Source: Colwellia sp. RSH04 (GTDB lineage: Bacteria > Pseudomonadota > Gammaproteobacteria > Enterobacterales > Alteromonadaceae). Taken from it: a stretch of DNA of 64,000 nucleotides. Position 1 is the first letter of the stretch. The number at the start of each line of letters is the position of its first letter. The stretch spans positions 62,001 through 126,000 of the forward strand of contig NZ_QXIO01000003.1 in the NCBI RefSeq assembly GCF_003545765.1. The letters run 5' to 3'. The position numbers and the translations under genes were made by a program. Of this stretch, positions 29,622 through 33,637 are shown piece after piece. Below the pieces are notes generated by a model. It saw nothing but the letters and a program-made list of their open reading frames with translations. It ran no database searches and had not been told where the DNA came from.

Positions 29622-29696
29622 CCATTAATGTTTTACTTACTGTTATTAAACACAATATGAAAAATAATATGTAATATAACTATCAAATAATATGAC

Positions 29697-29720
29697 AATA
29701 AAAAGCCCGCATTTTGCGGG
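29697..29720 (-). terminator. Intrinsic terminator of the DRT3 non-coding RNA
   Basis: Read on the minus strand, CCCGCA-AAA-TGCGGG (6-bp stem, 29720 to 29706) is followed by C and a T5 run at 29704-29700. On the plus strand the same hairpin lacks a T run directly after it. The orientation therefore suits transcripts coming from drt3b and the RNA behind it rather than the chemoreceptor gene. Confidence 0.75.
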
Positions 29721-29839
29721 TGATTTATTTACTGCCGAAGACATTATTTCTTTTAGTTTCAATAAAGAAATGTTTAACAAATGAATCAATAATACATAAG
29801 CTATTGGGATATATTGAAAAGGTGCAAAGTGGGCCTTTC

Positions 29840-29846
29840 GTGTGTG
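29840..29846 (-). other. Candidate reverse-transcription template (CACACAC) of the ncRNA
   Basis: On the minus strand the RNA reads GCAGCACACACGAAAGGCCC. The dinucleotide-repeat tract at 29846-29840 sits in the single-stranded part between helix GCTGC/GCAGC and the long-range 10-bp closing stem. Copying it would give GTGTGT. This agrees with my recollection that Drt3a makes poly(GT) from an ACACAC template. No comparable tract exists in the drt3a leader. Confidence 0.65.
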
Positions 29847-30205
29847 CTGCATCCATTCTCAAAAAAGTCAACTTTCTAGCGAGGCTATCCAGCTTCATAA
29901 TGTTAAACATCAACAGTTAACCATCAAGCTTGATCATTAAATCTAAGCTTTTAGGCTTTATGACCCTAAGGTCACTTTAACCGGTGTCTTAGGATGTTAG
30001 GCTCGTAACGTTTTCCAAACCTTACACCTATGACCCGTTTCTGACGCATCTTACTACAGACAAAGCTATAAGCATCGTGTAGACCCAAATAAAATCAACC
30101 CATCAGTCATAACTCATTGCTAAACTAATCATGAGAGGTGTCATCTACTTAGATCTCTAGGCGCGGCTCAAATTTTGCAGCCTGCCACTTTGCAACTACG
30201 ATGTT

Positions 30206-30214
30206 ATTATATCA
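30206..30214 (-). promoter_or_regulatory. Extended -10 promoter overlapping the drt3b stop codon
   Basis: Minus-strand TGATATAAT is a perfect extended -10 element (TGnTATAAT). Its TGA is also the drt3b stop codon. No good -35 lies at 16-18 bp, as is common for extended -10 promoters. Initiation about 7 nt downstream (around 30199-30197) would place the RNA 5' end just before the long-range stem at 30194, which supports an independently transcribed ncRNA. Confidence 0.6.
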
Positions 30215-32182
30215 GTATGCTGTACGCAACTCTTTGCGCATCAATAATCTTTGAATATCATCAGGTTTGCTCTTCCAAGCATAAAACCACTCTCTTTCTG
30301 AGCTAAAGTAATTAGTAAGAGCAGCAGCTTTTTGACCAATTTGTGCTGTTCTAAGTGATATATTCTCTTTTTGATATGCGACCAAATAAGATTTGGCGAT
30401 TGCTTTTTTCTCTGCTGTAGATATATAAGGAGAAGATAATAGATCACATAACAACAAAAAGGCTTCTGTTGATTTCTCAATCATATCGAACTCGCCAAAC
30501 TTAGTGTCTATTAAAAATTTTATGACCTGCTTTTTTATCCCTTTAAACTTACGTTTGTTCCCACAGTAATCTAGACAGCAAACGATGCGAAAGTAATCTA
30601 AGCTTTTTATGTCTGCTTCTAACCCAAATGCTTGCTGTATAAGCTCTTCAGATAGCATAAATGACTTCCCAAGAGACTCTGAAGTCGTGACAAGATTAAA
30701 AAGTTCAATATTAGGTTCTTTATTTTGATGTGAACTAGATTGAATTAAAGCAGTGATTTCATCGAAAATAGCTTTATTTATATTAGAATCATCAGAATCT
30801 TCTTTAGGCTCTTCTTTTAACAGATTAATTAACCTACAAATCAAATAGCTACTCCGAGATTTTGGACTCATAGCAAAAATAAAGAAGGTCGTTTCTAAAA
30901 CAAAAATCTTTAATTTTTCCAGATCCTTTTCGTTCACCTCTGCTTTATGGTTTTTAATAGCGTTAAGAACTTTCTTAAGGAGCTTGATTAAAATTGATAT
31001 AGAGAAGCTAATCACAGCATCAAAACTTATTTCATTTTTCTTTACTATAGCTTTAACATCTCTAATGAAGGAATTGGATAATGAACTTTTATTCCAAATC
31101 TTTTTTAAAAGCTTTTCTTCTGAATAGTCATTATCTTGTTTAAAGTTTACTAGTTGAGAAAAGTAATGATCAATTGTCTTTCCTATTTCAATTTTAGCGA
31201 TAGTCTCGCCAGTCATGAATGGTCGGTTAACAGATATTGTTTTTGATTCATTAATATAGAGCTTAAATTCTGATAAATTCTTCTCTAATATTTGAGATAT
31301 CGCTTCTGAAACTGACTTGTTATTGGAGAATATAAAGTAGTCATCAATATAACGTCTAATTTCATAATCAACACCACGAGTAAGCTCCTTACTAGATAAA
31401 GCATTATCAACTTTAGTATCAATAGACTGTAGGATAATCTCCGAAAAAACTCTTGATATTTCAGGGCCAATTAAAATACCATTAGTTTCATTGTAATTCA
31501 TTATTTGCATTAACTTGTCAAACCCACCGTCAAATGTATCTGCATTGACGTAGTTTTTTGAAAAGTTTTTACCTTTAACTGCCCACGACATACTATGGGT
31601 ATAAATATGGTGAAAGCACTTAGATATATCCATTCTCAAAAGGTTTTTAAATTTTCTTTCAAGCCTATGAAACTCATAAGATTCATAAAATTTATACATG
31701 AAATTATATTTTTCATAAGAAAAATATGAACTAGATGTCAACTTAGAATTAGAGTTATTGTCTACAGTTCCCCATTCAACATCGCTATCTTCAGTCTTCC
31801 TACTCTTTTCATAATAATAAGCACCTACATCACTAGGATATCTTAGGGAATACTTGTTGTTTGCCGTAAGGTTTAAAATTACTTGTTCAAAGTTTGAATA
31901 AAATTTTGAACACTCTATTTGGTGTAGAGGGTGAATAACCGATAAAGTTCTATATGAATTTTCATCCTTTTTAATTTTGTAATTATAAGGAATGCTATAC
32001 ACCTTTTTTTTAACGCTATTAAGCGGAAAAGGAAAGTTCAACTTATCATCATTATCTTTTAAAGCCTTATAAAATCCAGTATTGGAAAACTTAAAAGGGA
32101 CTTCGTAAGGGAGCGTATCGGTGAGTAAAGCTCGGTAAGCGTCATTTTTATTAATAAACTGTTTTTTAGATTTACGTGACAT
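30212..32182 (-). CDS. drt3b: Antiviral reverse transcriptase Drt3b (UG8-type)
   Basis: This 656-aa protein is a group-II-intron-derived reverse transcriptase without a maturase or endonuclease domain. Palm motifs are in order: RMDISKCFHHIYTHS (motif A, Asp185), GILIGPEISR (235-244) and the catalytic RRYIDDYFIFS (YIDD, 278-281). Residues ~300-656 form a long Lys-rich, mostly helical C-terminal region. The N-terminus (TLPYEVPF, then FSNTGFY, residues 23-38) looks family-specific. It overlaps drt3a by 11 bp and is encoded second. The pairing of two RT genes matches DRT type 3. In that system, as I recall, Drt3b makes the poly(AC) strand without a nucleic acid template. Size and order support UG8 identity; no search was run. 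Confidence 0.85.
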   Translation of the reverse strand: MSRKSKKQFINKNDAYRALLTDTLPYEVPFKFSNTGFYKALKDNDDKLNFPFPLNSVKKKVYSIPYNYKIKKDENSYRTLSVIHPLHQIECSKFYSNFEQVILNLTANNKYSLRYPSDVGAYYYEKSRKTEDSDVEWGTVDNNSNSKLTSSSYFSYEKYNFMYKFYESYEFHRLERKFKNLLRMDISKCFHHIYTHSMSWAVKGKNFSKNYVNADTFDGGFDKLMQIMNYNETNGILIGPEISRVFSEIILQSIDTKVDNALSSKELTRGVDYEIRRYIDDYFIFSNNKSVSEAISQILEKNLSEFKLYINESKTISVNRPFMTGETIAKIEIGKTIDHYFSQLVNFKQDNDYSEEKLLKKIWNKSSLSNSFIRDVKAIVKKNEISFDAVISFSISILIKLLKKVLNAIKNHKAEVNEKDLEKLKIFVLETTFFIFAMSPKSRSSYLICRLINLLKEEPKEDSDDSNINKAIFDEITALIQSSSHQNKEPNIELFNLVTTSESLGKSFMLSEELIQQAFGLEADIKSLDYFRIVCCLDYCGNKRKFKGIKKQVIKFLIDTKFGEFDMIEKSTEAFLLLCDLLSSPYISTAEKKAIAKSYLVAYQKENISLRTAQIGQKAAALTNYFSSEREWFYAWKSKPDDIQRLLMRKELRTAY

Positions 32183-33383
32183 GCTTCCAAGCCTTTCTTA
32201 TTAAGATGATTTTCTCAGGGGTAAATTTAAAAAGTTTTTTATTTTTAAAGCCAGTTACAAACTTAAGGCGAATTAACTTTTTTCTCTGGGAGTTTGATAA
32301 CAGACCAGCTAGTTTAGTACCTAAACTACCATGCTTAGAAAGCACACTCCTAGCCAAAAAAATATCGAGTTTCCGTAGGTCTTTTTCACCTAATTTTTGT
32401 TTTTCTATCAATGGGTAATTATAGTAAATTCCAGCTTTTAACCCCTTTCTATTACTTGTAATGGTATAATTTCCCGTGAGAAATTTAATACGCTCTAACA
32501 GCAAGTTATAGTCACCGTCTTTACAGAATCGCTTCAATGAACAAATAATTCTAGACTTAATTTTGTTCAATTTAGGTTTAGCTATTCCAATATTTACCTG
32601 CTTATTTTTGTCACTCTTTATTACGAACTTATACCCTAGATACTCTAAAGTTTGTTCAACGGCAGTGGCTCCTTTAGGAAGTAACTCTTTTTTGATATGG
32701 TCTGACTTATTGTTAAATTTTAGTCCGCTAGGCAATGTATCTTCTGCGAGACATTCTATGTATTCTTTTGGTTTTGTAGTAAAGATTATTATGTCGTCAA
32801 CAAATCTAGCGTAGTAATAAATCGAGTGATGTGAAGCCATAGTTCGGTCAAACTTTTGTAGGAATAATTCCGATAAAGTTGAACTAATAGCTTGCCCCCT
32901 ATGAAGGCCAGAGCGTGAGTTACTATAAAAAGTGTTGACTATTTTTTTAGTTTGGCTGCTTGGCACAGGGTTGTCATTGATTTTCTTTAGAACTACCTCA
33001 AGTGGTATGTTTTCATAGAATTTTTCTATATCTAGTTTTAAAACAGTAAATGGCACAGGTTCTTTCAGAAGAGCCTCTACTTGCTTAACGATCTGTTCTC
33101 TATTTTTTGGTTTTATTTTGAATATTCGTTTTAAGTTATCATTTGCTTTCCTAAGTGCAAATTCAGATACAGGATGATGAGTACCTAGTATAACCATTTC
33201 ACCTTTTTTGGTTTTTCTGGGACGAACAGGAGATATTGCAAAGTTAGAGTTAATAAGTTCATCCGTCAGTCCTTGATGAAACTCTAGATAGTCTTCTTTT
33301 TTGCCCCCCATTTTATAATTTCGGGGATCTACTTTTTTGGTTAAACGGAGATAGTTTTTAGGTGTAAAAGCTTGATTAAGCAT
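32172..33383 (-). CDS. drt3a: Antiviral reverse transcriptase Drt3a (UG3-type)
   Basis: This 403-aa reverse transcriptase is the first gene of a two-RT operon. Motif A is VLKLDIEKFYENIP (Asp118), motif B is GLHRGQAISS (159-168) and the catalytic box is ARFVDDIIIF (FVDD, 194-197). The C-terminal ~170 residues are basic and thumb-like, without GIIM, HNH or integrase domains. AAGGA about 10 nt upstream supports the ATG at 33383. With Drt3b and the downstream RNA it forms a phage-defence system. Drt3a is expected to copy the ncRNA's ACACAC template into GT-repeat DNA (recollection, plus template seen here). Confidence 0.86.
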   Translation of the reverse strand: MLNQAFTPKNYLRLTKKVDPRNYKMGGKKEDYLEFHQGLTDELINSNFAISPVRPRKTKKGEMVILGTHHPVSEFALRKANDNLKRIFKIKPKNREQIVKQVEALLKEPVPFTVLKLDIEKFYENIPLEVVLKKINDNPVPSSQTKKIVNTFYSNSRSGLHRGQAISSTLSELFLQKFDRTMASHHSIYYYARFVDDIIIFTTKPKEYIECLAEDTLPSGLKFNNKSDHIKKELLPKGATAVEQTLEYLGYKFVIKSDKNKQVNIGIAKPKLNKIKSRIICSLKRFCKDGDYNLLLERIKFLTGNYTITSNRKGLKAGIYYNYPLIEKQKLGEKDLRKLDIFLARSVLSKHGSLGTKLAGLLSNSQRKKLIRLKFVTGFKNKKLFKFTPEKIILIRKAWKHVT

Positions 33384-33607: not shown

Positions 33608-33637
33608 AGCCCGGCATTTTGCGGGCTTTTTTATTTT
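33608..33637 (+). terminator. Intrinsic terminator at right edge of island
   Basis: Plus-strand AGCCCG-GCATTTTG-CGGGCT is followed by T6 and more T-rich sequence. No plus-strand gene ends nearby; the nearest is the chemoreceptor at 29621. Its core is nearly identical to the hairpin at 29704-29720 at the other end of the island. Confidence 0.75.

Follow-up and report, generated by a model that had tools for sequence, protein, structure and literature searches.

A probable DRT3 anti-phage system with an unusually long predicted RNA on the chromosome of Colwellia sp. RSH04

The gene pair and its setting

The 64,000-nucleotide stretch of Colwellia sp. RSH04 analysed here (contig NZ_QXIO01000003.1, positions 62,001 to 126,000; hereafter the window, in which all coordinates are given) carries two reverse transcriptase (RT) open reading frames (ORFs) on the minus strand between 33383 and 30212, both intact and overlapping by 11 nt. 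The first gene, drt3a (32172..33383), encodes a 403-aa class 2 RT of the UG3 family with the palm motif RFVDD, and the second, drt3b (30212..32182), a 656-aa class 1 RT of the UG8 family with the palm motif RYIDD. Together with an RNA predicted downstream of drt3b, the pair very probably constitutes an intact chromosomal type 3 defence-associated RT (DRT3) anti-phage system, composed of UG3, UG8 and a non-coding RNA (ncRNA) and working overall as proposed below; this confidence covers the DRT3 identity and the overall working, the role of the extra RNA found in this copy being judged separately.

An initial annotation of this DNA had described two overlapping RT genes with intact FVDD and YIDD motifs, free of maturase, endonuclease or integrase domains and standing alone between a chemoreceptor and an HDOD gene, and each of these points holds. 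Pfam searches at E up to 1 found RVT_1 in both proteins and no maturase, endonuclease or integrase domain in either, with a single sub-threshold chance match to Vps4_C (E 0.23). The gene pair is flanked by genes for an HDOD protein and for a chemoreceptor with MCPsignal and HAMP domains.

Assignment to DRT3

Drt3a matched NCBIfam NF041747 at 355.5 bits (cut-off 200) and Drt3b matched NF041748 at 641.5 bits (cut-off 350), with the Drt3a (407.6 bits) and Drt3b (694.8 bits) models being the respective top PADLOC matches, such that the profile search of both proteins proposed in the initial annotation places them in UG3 and UG8 well above the cut-offs. Approximately 97% of UG3 genes adjoin UG8, according to the sections of PMC8934634 available to us. 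The best PDB sequence match of Drt3a was the solved Drt3a chain 9z6y_A (E 5.6e-49), and those of Drt3b were 26cz_A (E 5e-125) followed by 9z6y_H (E 5.8e-97). AlphaFold models had a mean pLDDT of 81.2 for Drt3a and 70.5 for Drt3b and, among the Foldseek matches listed, the predicted Drt3a fold was nearest to DRT9-ncRNA RTs and the predicted Drt3b fold to DRT6, AbiK, DRT4 and UG15, as expected for a class 2 and a class 1 RT, respectively. No DRT3 entry was among the 50 matches listed for either model in the Foldseek copy of PDB, which ends in April 2026, the DRT3 chains having been found by sequence search instead.

In E. coli Drt3b, E22 is the dA gate, R241 the dC gate and R71 stacks on the incoming base, with an active site comprising D182, I183, F187, Y276, V277 and D278 and with Y666 as the DNA primer (available sections of PMC13174585). 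The 667-aa Drt3b of the E. coli locus L058 was numbered such that its terminal tyrosine is residue 666, whereupon its letters match the published residues. In an alignment of 30 Drt3b rows the gate residues are kept in the window's protein, with E27, R78 and R244 aligning to E22, R71 and R241, as are the active-site positions, with D185, I186, F190 and YIDD 278-281 aligning to D182, I183, F187 and YVDD 276-279; the E. coli V277 is replaced by I. The priming tyrosine is likewise kept as Y656, the C-terminal residue, which aligns to Y666. Across the 30 rows the columns of R71, D182, F187 and R241 are invariant, the E22 column holds E or D in 29 (with a gap in L048) and the priming column holds Y in 27, the exceptions being L057 (M), L049 (I) and L020 (a gap in a broken gene). 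The YxDD columns are also invariant bar V/I, a conservation that is partly by construction because the rows were chosen with a pattern requiring R[YF][VI]DD. The window's Drt3b is 38.9% identical to the E. coli type over 633 columns and groups in the tree with Drt3b of the E. coli P4-satellite type (L058, L057, L103, L104) with a support of 93/85.

The predicted RNA

Downstream of drt3b, on the same strand, a DRT3 ncRNA core of 378 nt is predicted at 29820..30197, a length measured between the outer ends of its closing stem, P1. The 5′ arm of P1 (30185..30197) starts 15 nt past the drt3b stop and forms 12 of 13 pairs with the 3′ arm (29820..29832), the two reading AGTTGCAAAGTGG / CCACTTTGCACCT (30197-30185 / 29832-29820), and the inner 10 pairs have a mean predicted pair probability of 0.94. 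The only ACACAC on the coding strand downstream of drt3b, the putative template for poly(GT), lies at 29840..29845 and ends 7 nt before the 3′ arm, with a predicted unpaired probability of 0.85-0.94. A GCTG...CAGC hairpin (29846..29893; mean pair probability of the outer stem 0.82) ends directly before it, and the template is placed with respect to hairpin and P1 as in relatives. The fold of a 422-nt segment was predicted at -119.2 kcal/mol (z -3.2), with 0 of 100 shuffles as stable.

The ACACAC hexamer by itself is weak evidence, with eight occurrences on both strands of the window, below a shuffle mean of 22.2. The stem adds to this, P1 having a score of 27 with a shuffle p of 0.010 and none of 56 arm swaps as good in a narrow-window helix score, a test adopted, with its shuffles and arm swaps, after a noisy and less favourable wide duplex result had been seen. 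When the stem score was taken over 35 upstream blocks, 27 was reached at this ACACAC only, the other seven in the window reaching 16-23, and ACACAC plus its closing stem is thus more than chance. As such, the ncRNA with ACACAC in a loop downstream of drt3b that DRT3 calls for is predicted to be present, and the DRT3 identity that the initial annotation had drawn from gene order, protein sizes of 403 and 656 aa and an RNA with ACACAC finds agreement from NCBIfam, PADLOC, PDB, residues and RNA layout.

RNA layout across DRT3 loci

CACAC was sought in 43 loci, 35 including the window together with eight viewed for CACAC only, a set that holds near-copies (L050/L051, L052/L053, L059/L060 and L057/L103). 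It was present downstream of drt3b in all 43, the 42 loci other than the window thereby supplying the RNA element whose lack at homologous loci the initial annotation would have taken as refutation. ACACAC was found in 38, with CACAC alone in L012, L014, L044, L045 and L046; because these five carry CACAC alone, five template bases may suffice. Where CACAC occurred more than once the choice was made by eye, with the second of two ACACAC taken in L017 and CACAC at +81 taken over ACACAC at +611 in L014. The templates of L014, L044, L045, L046 and L012 lie 78-94 nt after drt3b and read TCACACG, with CTCACACAT in L012, the published template being ACACAC. The first four of these belong to a single clade whose Drt3b proteins end in RSPY.

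When stem arms were swapped among 29 loci the cognate sum was 674 compared with a permuted mean of 475.5 (sd 18.5), and none of 5,000 permutations was as high. In 15 of these 29 loci the 5′ arm of the best stem begins 14-22 nt past the drt3b stop, and in 26 the distance from the fifth template base to the beginning of the 3′ arm is 3-13 nt. The folds of L014, L044, L045, L046 and L058 show a hairpin that ends at the template or no more than one base away from it. Outside P1 and the template, DRT3 RNAs are too diverged for alignment. The 29-locus test left out the duplicates and near-copies L011 (=L050), L054 (=L015), L051, L053, L057, L060, L103 and L107, whereas the narrow test of 28 loci kept the near-copies L051, L057 and L060. 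L020 (drt3b in two pieces), L056, L106, L109, L112, L114, L115 and L117, for which the ORF step gave no full drt3b or a wrong ORF, stood outside the stem test, with CACAC present in all eight. The weak RT matches L003-L009, L021-L037, L055 and L119-L128 were kept out of the DRT3 analysis, and L042, an E. coli plasmid with a split drt3b, was not counted. The drt3b of L042 (CP083496, 3283-5326) has been annotated as a pair of hypothetical proteins, unlike the single-CDS drt3b copies that E. coli chromosomes carry.

An enlarged inner part of the RNA

The predicted RNA is not of the usual DRT3 size, spanning 378 nt from P1 to P1 compared with 40-228 nt in 27 other loci (best stems, non-significant ones included) and 67-226 nt in the 11 other loci with significant stems. 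It is approximately 240 nt longer than, and about three times the length of, the 133-nt RNA of the nearest E. coli kin, L058. In keeping with this, the template offset of +367 after drt3b is the largest of the 43 loci, the other 42 ranging from +25 to about +266, with L112 next (about +266, counted from the match end) and L058 at +129. Size is not stated as defining for the DRT3 RNA in the available sections of PMC13174585, in which no statement on length variation of DRT3 RNAs was found either.

The enlargement lies in the inner part between P1 and the template hairpin (29894..30184, minus strand), which holds several strongly predicted hairpins, among them 30156-30144/30093-30081 (mean probability 0.96) and 30037-30016/30005-29982 (0.97-1.00). 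No second copy of this part was found in the host genome, and Rfam gave no credible family for the RNA region at gathering or loose thresholds, the loose matches to mir-971, snR41 and Trp_leader lying far below their gathering scores. Phage and plasmid DNA records gave only short matches to the RNA region, the best at E 0.04 and outside the P1-to-P1 core, and an exact 30-nt pattern from the RNA had 0 matches in viral contigs. Templates also lie far downstream (+207 to +224) in a separate clade of L038, L048 and L049, and the RNA may therefore have grown on more than one occasion.

Island, insertion site and spread

The system forms an island of approximately 3.9 kb bounded by two terminator-like hairpins with T runs, one at its left edge following the RNA (29696..29720, minus strand) and the other at its right edge (33608..33637, plus strand; 15-nt core 33611-33625), the 15-nt cores of the two being 93% alike with one mismatch. 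The chemoreceptor and HDOD genes are 4.08 kb apart in the window. Their counterparts in the sister genome G005, with an identity of 89% for the HDOD protein and of 93% for residues 234-682 of the chemoreceptor, are separated by about 150 bp, in which one terminator-like hairpin lies. The sibling-strain comparison suggested by the initial annotation thus found the site empty in the sister genome and Drt3b in 1 of 39 genus genomes. At this convergent terminator the DRT3 island was either acquired or lost, with acquisition being the simpler reading because Drt3b exceeded the cut-off in that one genus genome only, the window's own. The corresponding counts, each including the window's own copy, were 12 of 394 genomes in the order and 2 of 369 in the class. 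At E 1e-45 Drt3a matched in 4 of 395 family genomes, one being its own and the others 33-37% identical, and the best Drt3b match in viral contigs was 38% identical. No integrase was found among the eight flanking proteins scanned.

Two near-identical terminator hairpins at the island (29705-29721 and 33608-33627) compared with one at the empty site of a sister genome (L070) have the appearance of an insertion at a convergent terminator. In L092, a genus member, the gap between the HDOD and chemoreceptor genes is about 690 bp and holds a small ORF read by eye as cold-shock-like; because this gap holds another small ORF, the site may accept different cargo.

Comparison with known systems

The nearest kin are the E. 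coli DRT3 systems of P4-like satellites (L058, L057), which by length and numbering are the type of PMC13174585 and, we infer, also that of PDB 26cz. With these the window's copy has in common the order drt3a-drt3b-ncRNA and the gate, active-site and priming residues of Drt3b, together with an ACACAC between hairpin and closing stem. It differs from L058 in the 38.9% identity of Drt3b and in the RNA length (378 compared with 133 nt) and template offset (+367 compared with +129), and from the P4-like type in that its genes overlap by 11 nt rather than lying 3 nt apart and in that no integrase or satellite gene was found among the eight flanking proteins scanned. L057 and L058 have an integrase, drt3a, drt3b and then ogr/Delta-like and polarity suppression genes, 'P4-like' being read from this gene set. 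The Enterobacter hormaechei plasmid type (L038) is a complete DRT3 pair which, like L048 and L049, has a large offset; these three belong to another tree clade and by best stem their RNA is about 150-180 nt shorter than the window's.

Among other systems, DRT9 and DRT10 (a class 2 RT with an ncRNA) are akin to Drt3a in its predicted fold, nearest to DRT9-ncRNA RTs among the matches listed, and RNA-templated repeat addition is common to DRT3 and DRT9/DRT10 (available sections of PMC13174585). DRT3 differs from both in having two RTs rather than one and a second strand that is protein-templated. DRT4, DRT6 and AbiK (class 1, protein-primed) are akin to Drt3b in predicted fold and family matches, differing in that Drt3b has the E/R gate pair and a class 2 RT as its working partner.

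Proposed working

In E. coli, Drt3a makes poly(dT-dG) from ACACAC and Drt3b makes tyrosine-primed poly(dC-dA), with RecBCD restraining the system until a phage inhibitor acts (available sections of PMC13174585), which accords with the mechanism given in the initial annotation, namely poly(GT) made by Drt3a from the RNA and a complementary strand made by Drt3b without a nucleic acid template. By analogy, the Colwellia operon would be read from drt3a via drt3b into the RNA, stopping at the terminator-like hairpin at 29720-29696, and the RNA would fold with its closing stem just past drt3b and ACACAC held open between hairpin and stem. Drt3a would copy ACACAC repeatedly into poly(dT-dG), while Drt3b, primed by Y656, would add dC and dA in alternation to give poly(dC-dA), with R244 and E27 taking the place of a template, and the two strands would anneal into repeat double-stranded DNA (dsDNA). 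RecBCD would keep this dsDNA low until a phage blocks RecBCD, at which point cell growth would stop. The extra hairpins may act as a scaffold at the periphery, with no alteration of the catalytic layout. For this copy the gene identity, residues, predicted RNA layout, empty sister site and host RecB and GreA are read directly from sequence, and its DNA products, 6:6:6 complex, trigger and defence would be those of its E. coli relative. RecB and GreA were over the cut-off in the host in a profile search covering these two.

Weight of the evidence

Tests of family, residues, RNA layout, tree and fold all fit DRT3 and support the assignment, and the copy is a diverged, distant relative of E. coli DRT3, a kind of system already known. 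Several observations count against this assignment. Only 12 of 28 loci taken singly (the window and 11 of 27 others) attained a shuffle p of 0.05 in the narrow test, the E. coli L058 stem having a p of 0.083, and stem-test failures include the clade with the template 25-78 nt after the drt3b stop; taken together the 28 loci give a Fisher chi-square of 161 on 56 df, from rows that are not independent. The wider duplex test gave 7 of 100 shuffles as good as the window's P1 and 18 of 100 for L058, and no close homologous RNA was found for covariation in the enlarged part. The end branch of the window's Drt3b is long (1.22) and its tree support falls under the tree tool's 95/80 bar, on account of which product details could differ. 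A pair of RTs from group II introns or retrons in place of defence RTs, the outcome that the initial annotation would have accepted as refutation, would account for the fact that both proteins match generic RVT_1 and, weakly, group_II_RT_mat. The group_II_RT_mat matches score 54.5 and 40.6 bits where 300 is the cut-off, whereas the DRT3 models reach 355.5 and 641.5 bits, with no maturase domain in Pfam and no Rfam match at gathering score; the family scores refute a group II intron RT identity and leave the chance of such a pair negligible.

It is very improbable that the system is decaying, with intact ORFs, an RNA that no longer works and a coincidental ACACAC and stem. ACACAC is common by chance and the shuffle results for P1 (p 0.010 narrow, 7 of 100 as good wide) leave some room for coincidence, but both ORFs are full length with their key residues, the position after the stop, the hairpin-template adjacency and the template-to-P1 spacing fit relatives, and this is the sole ACACAC of eight in the window with such a stem. 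A more serious alternative, though one we still hold to be unlikely, is compatible with DRT3 and concerns the RNA, in that the proteins would be DRT3 and the RNA a DRT3 RNA of the usual short kind that harbours an unrelated element, for example a decayed insertion or a small RNA with a regulatory role. The span of 378 nt compared with 40-228 nt in 27 other loci and 133 nt in L058, and the position of CACAC at +25 to about +266 in 42 other loci, would be in keeping with an inserted element. Against it stand the lack of a second host-genome copy, of an Rfam family and of phage or plasmid matches better than E 0.04, the 422-nt fold, which keeps P1 intact and is more stable than any of 100 shuffles, and the large offsets of the L038/L048/L049 clade (+207 to +224), because of which RNA size appears to drift in the DRT3 family. 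Doubtful to a greater degree is the proposal that the approximately 240 nt gained between P1 and the template hairpin are a peripheral domain with its own job, for instance setting the trigger through contact with Drt3b or with a factor of host or phage.

Implications for DRT3

DRT3 is among the few systems known to synthesise DNA on a protein template, and a copy that is 38.9% identical yet keeps the gate, priming and template features helps to mark the essentials. The length of the RNA, the greatest in the sample and not remarked on in the initial annotation, suggests that DRT3 RNAs vary in size far beyond what a short-seeded model may allow. According to the available sections of PMC13174585, its RNA model was seeded from the 250 nt that follow each operon and afterwards run over 1 kb flanks; the window's template lies inside 1 kb, and so its detection by that model depends on the tolerance for extra RNA. 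The layout of a closing stem near the drt3b stop, a hairpin, CACAC, a short spacer and the closing stem again could serve as a guide to the RNA of diverged DRT3 loci. The extra RNA merits further attention. If it were a domain with its own job, this would be a DRT3 subtype whose RNA does more than template and scaffold.

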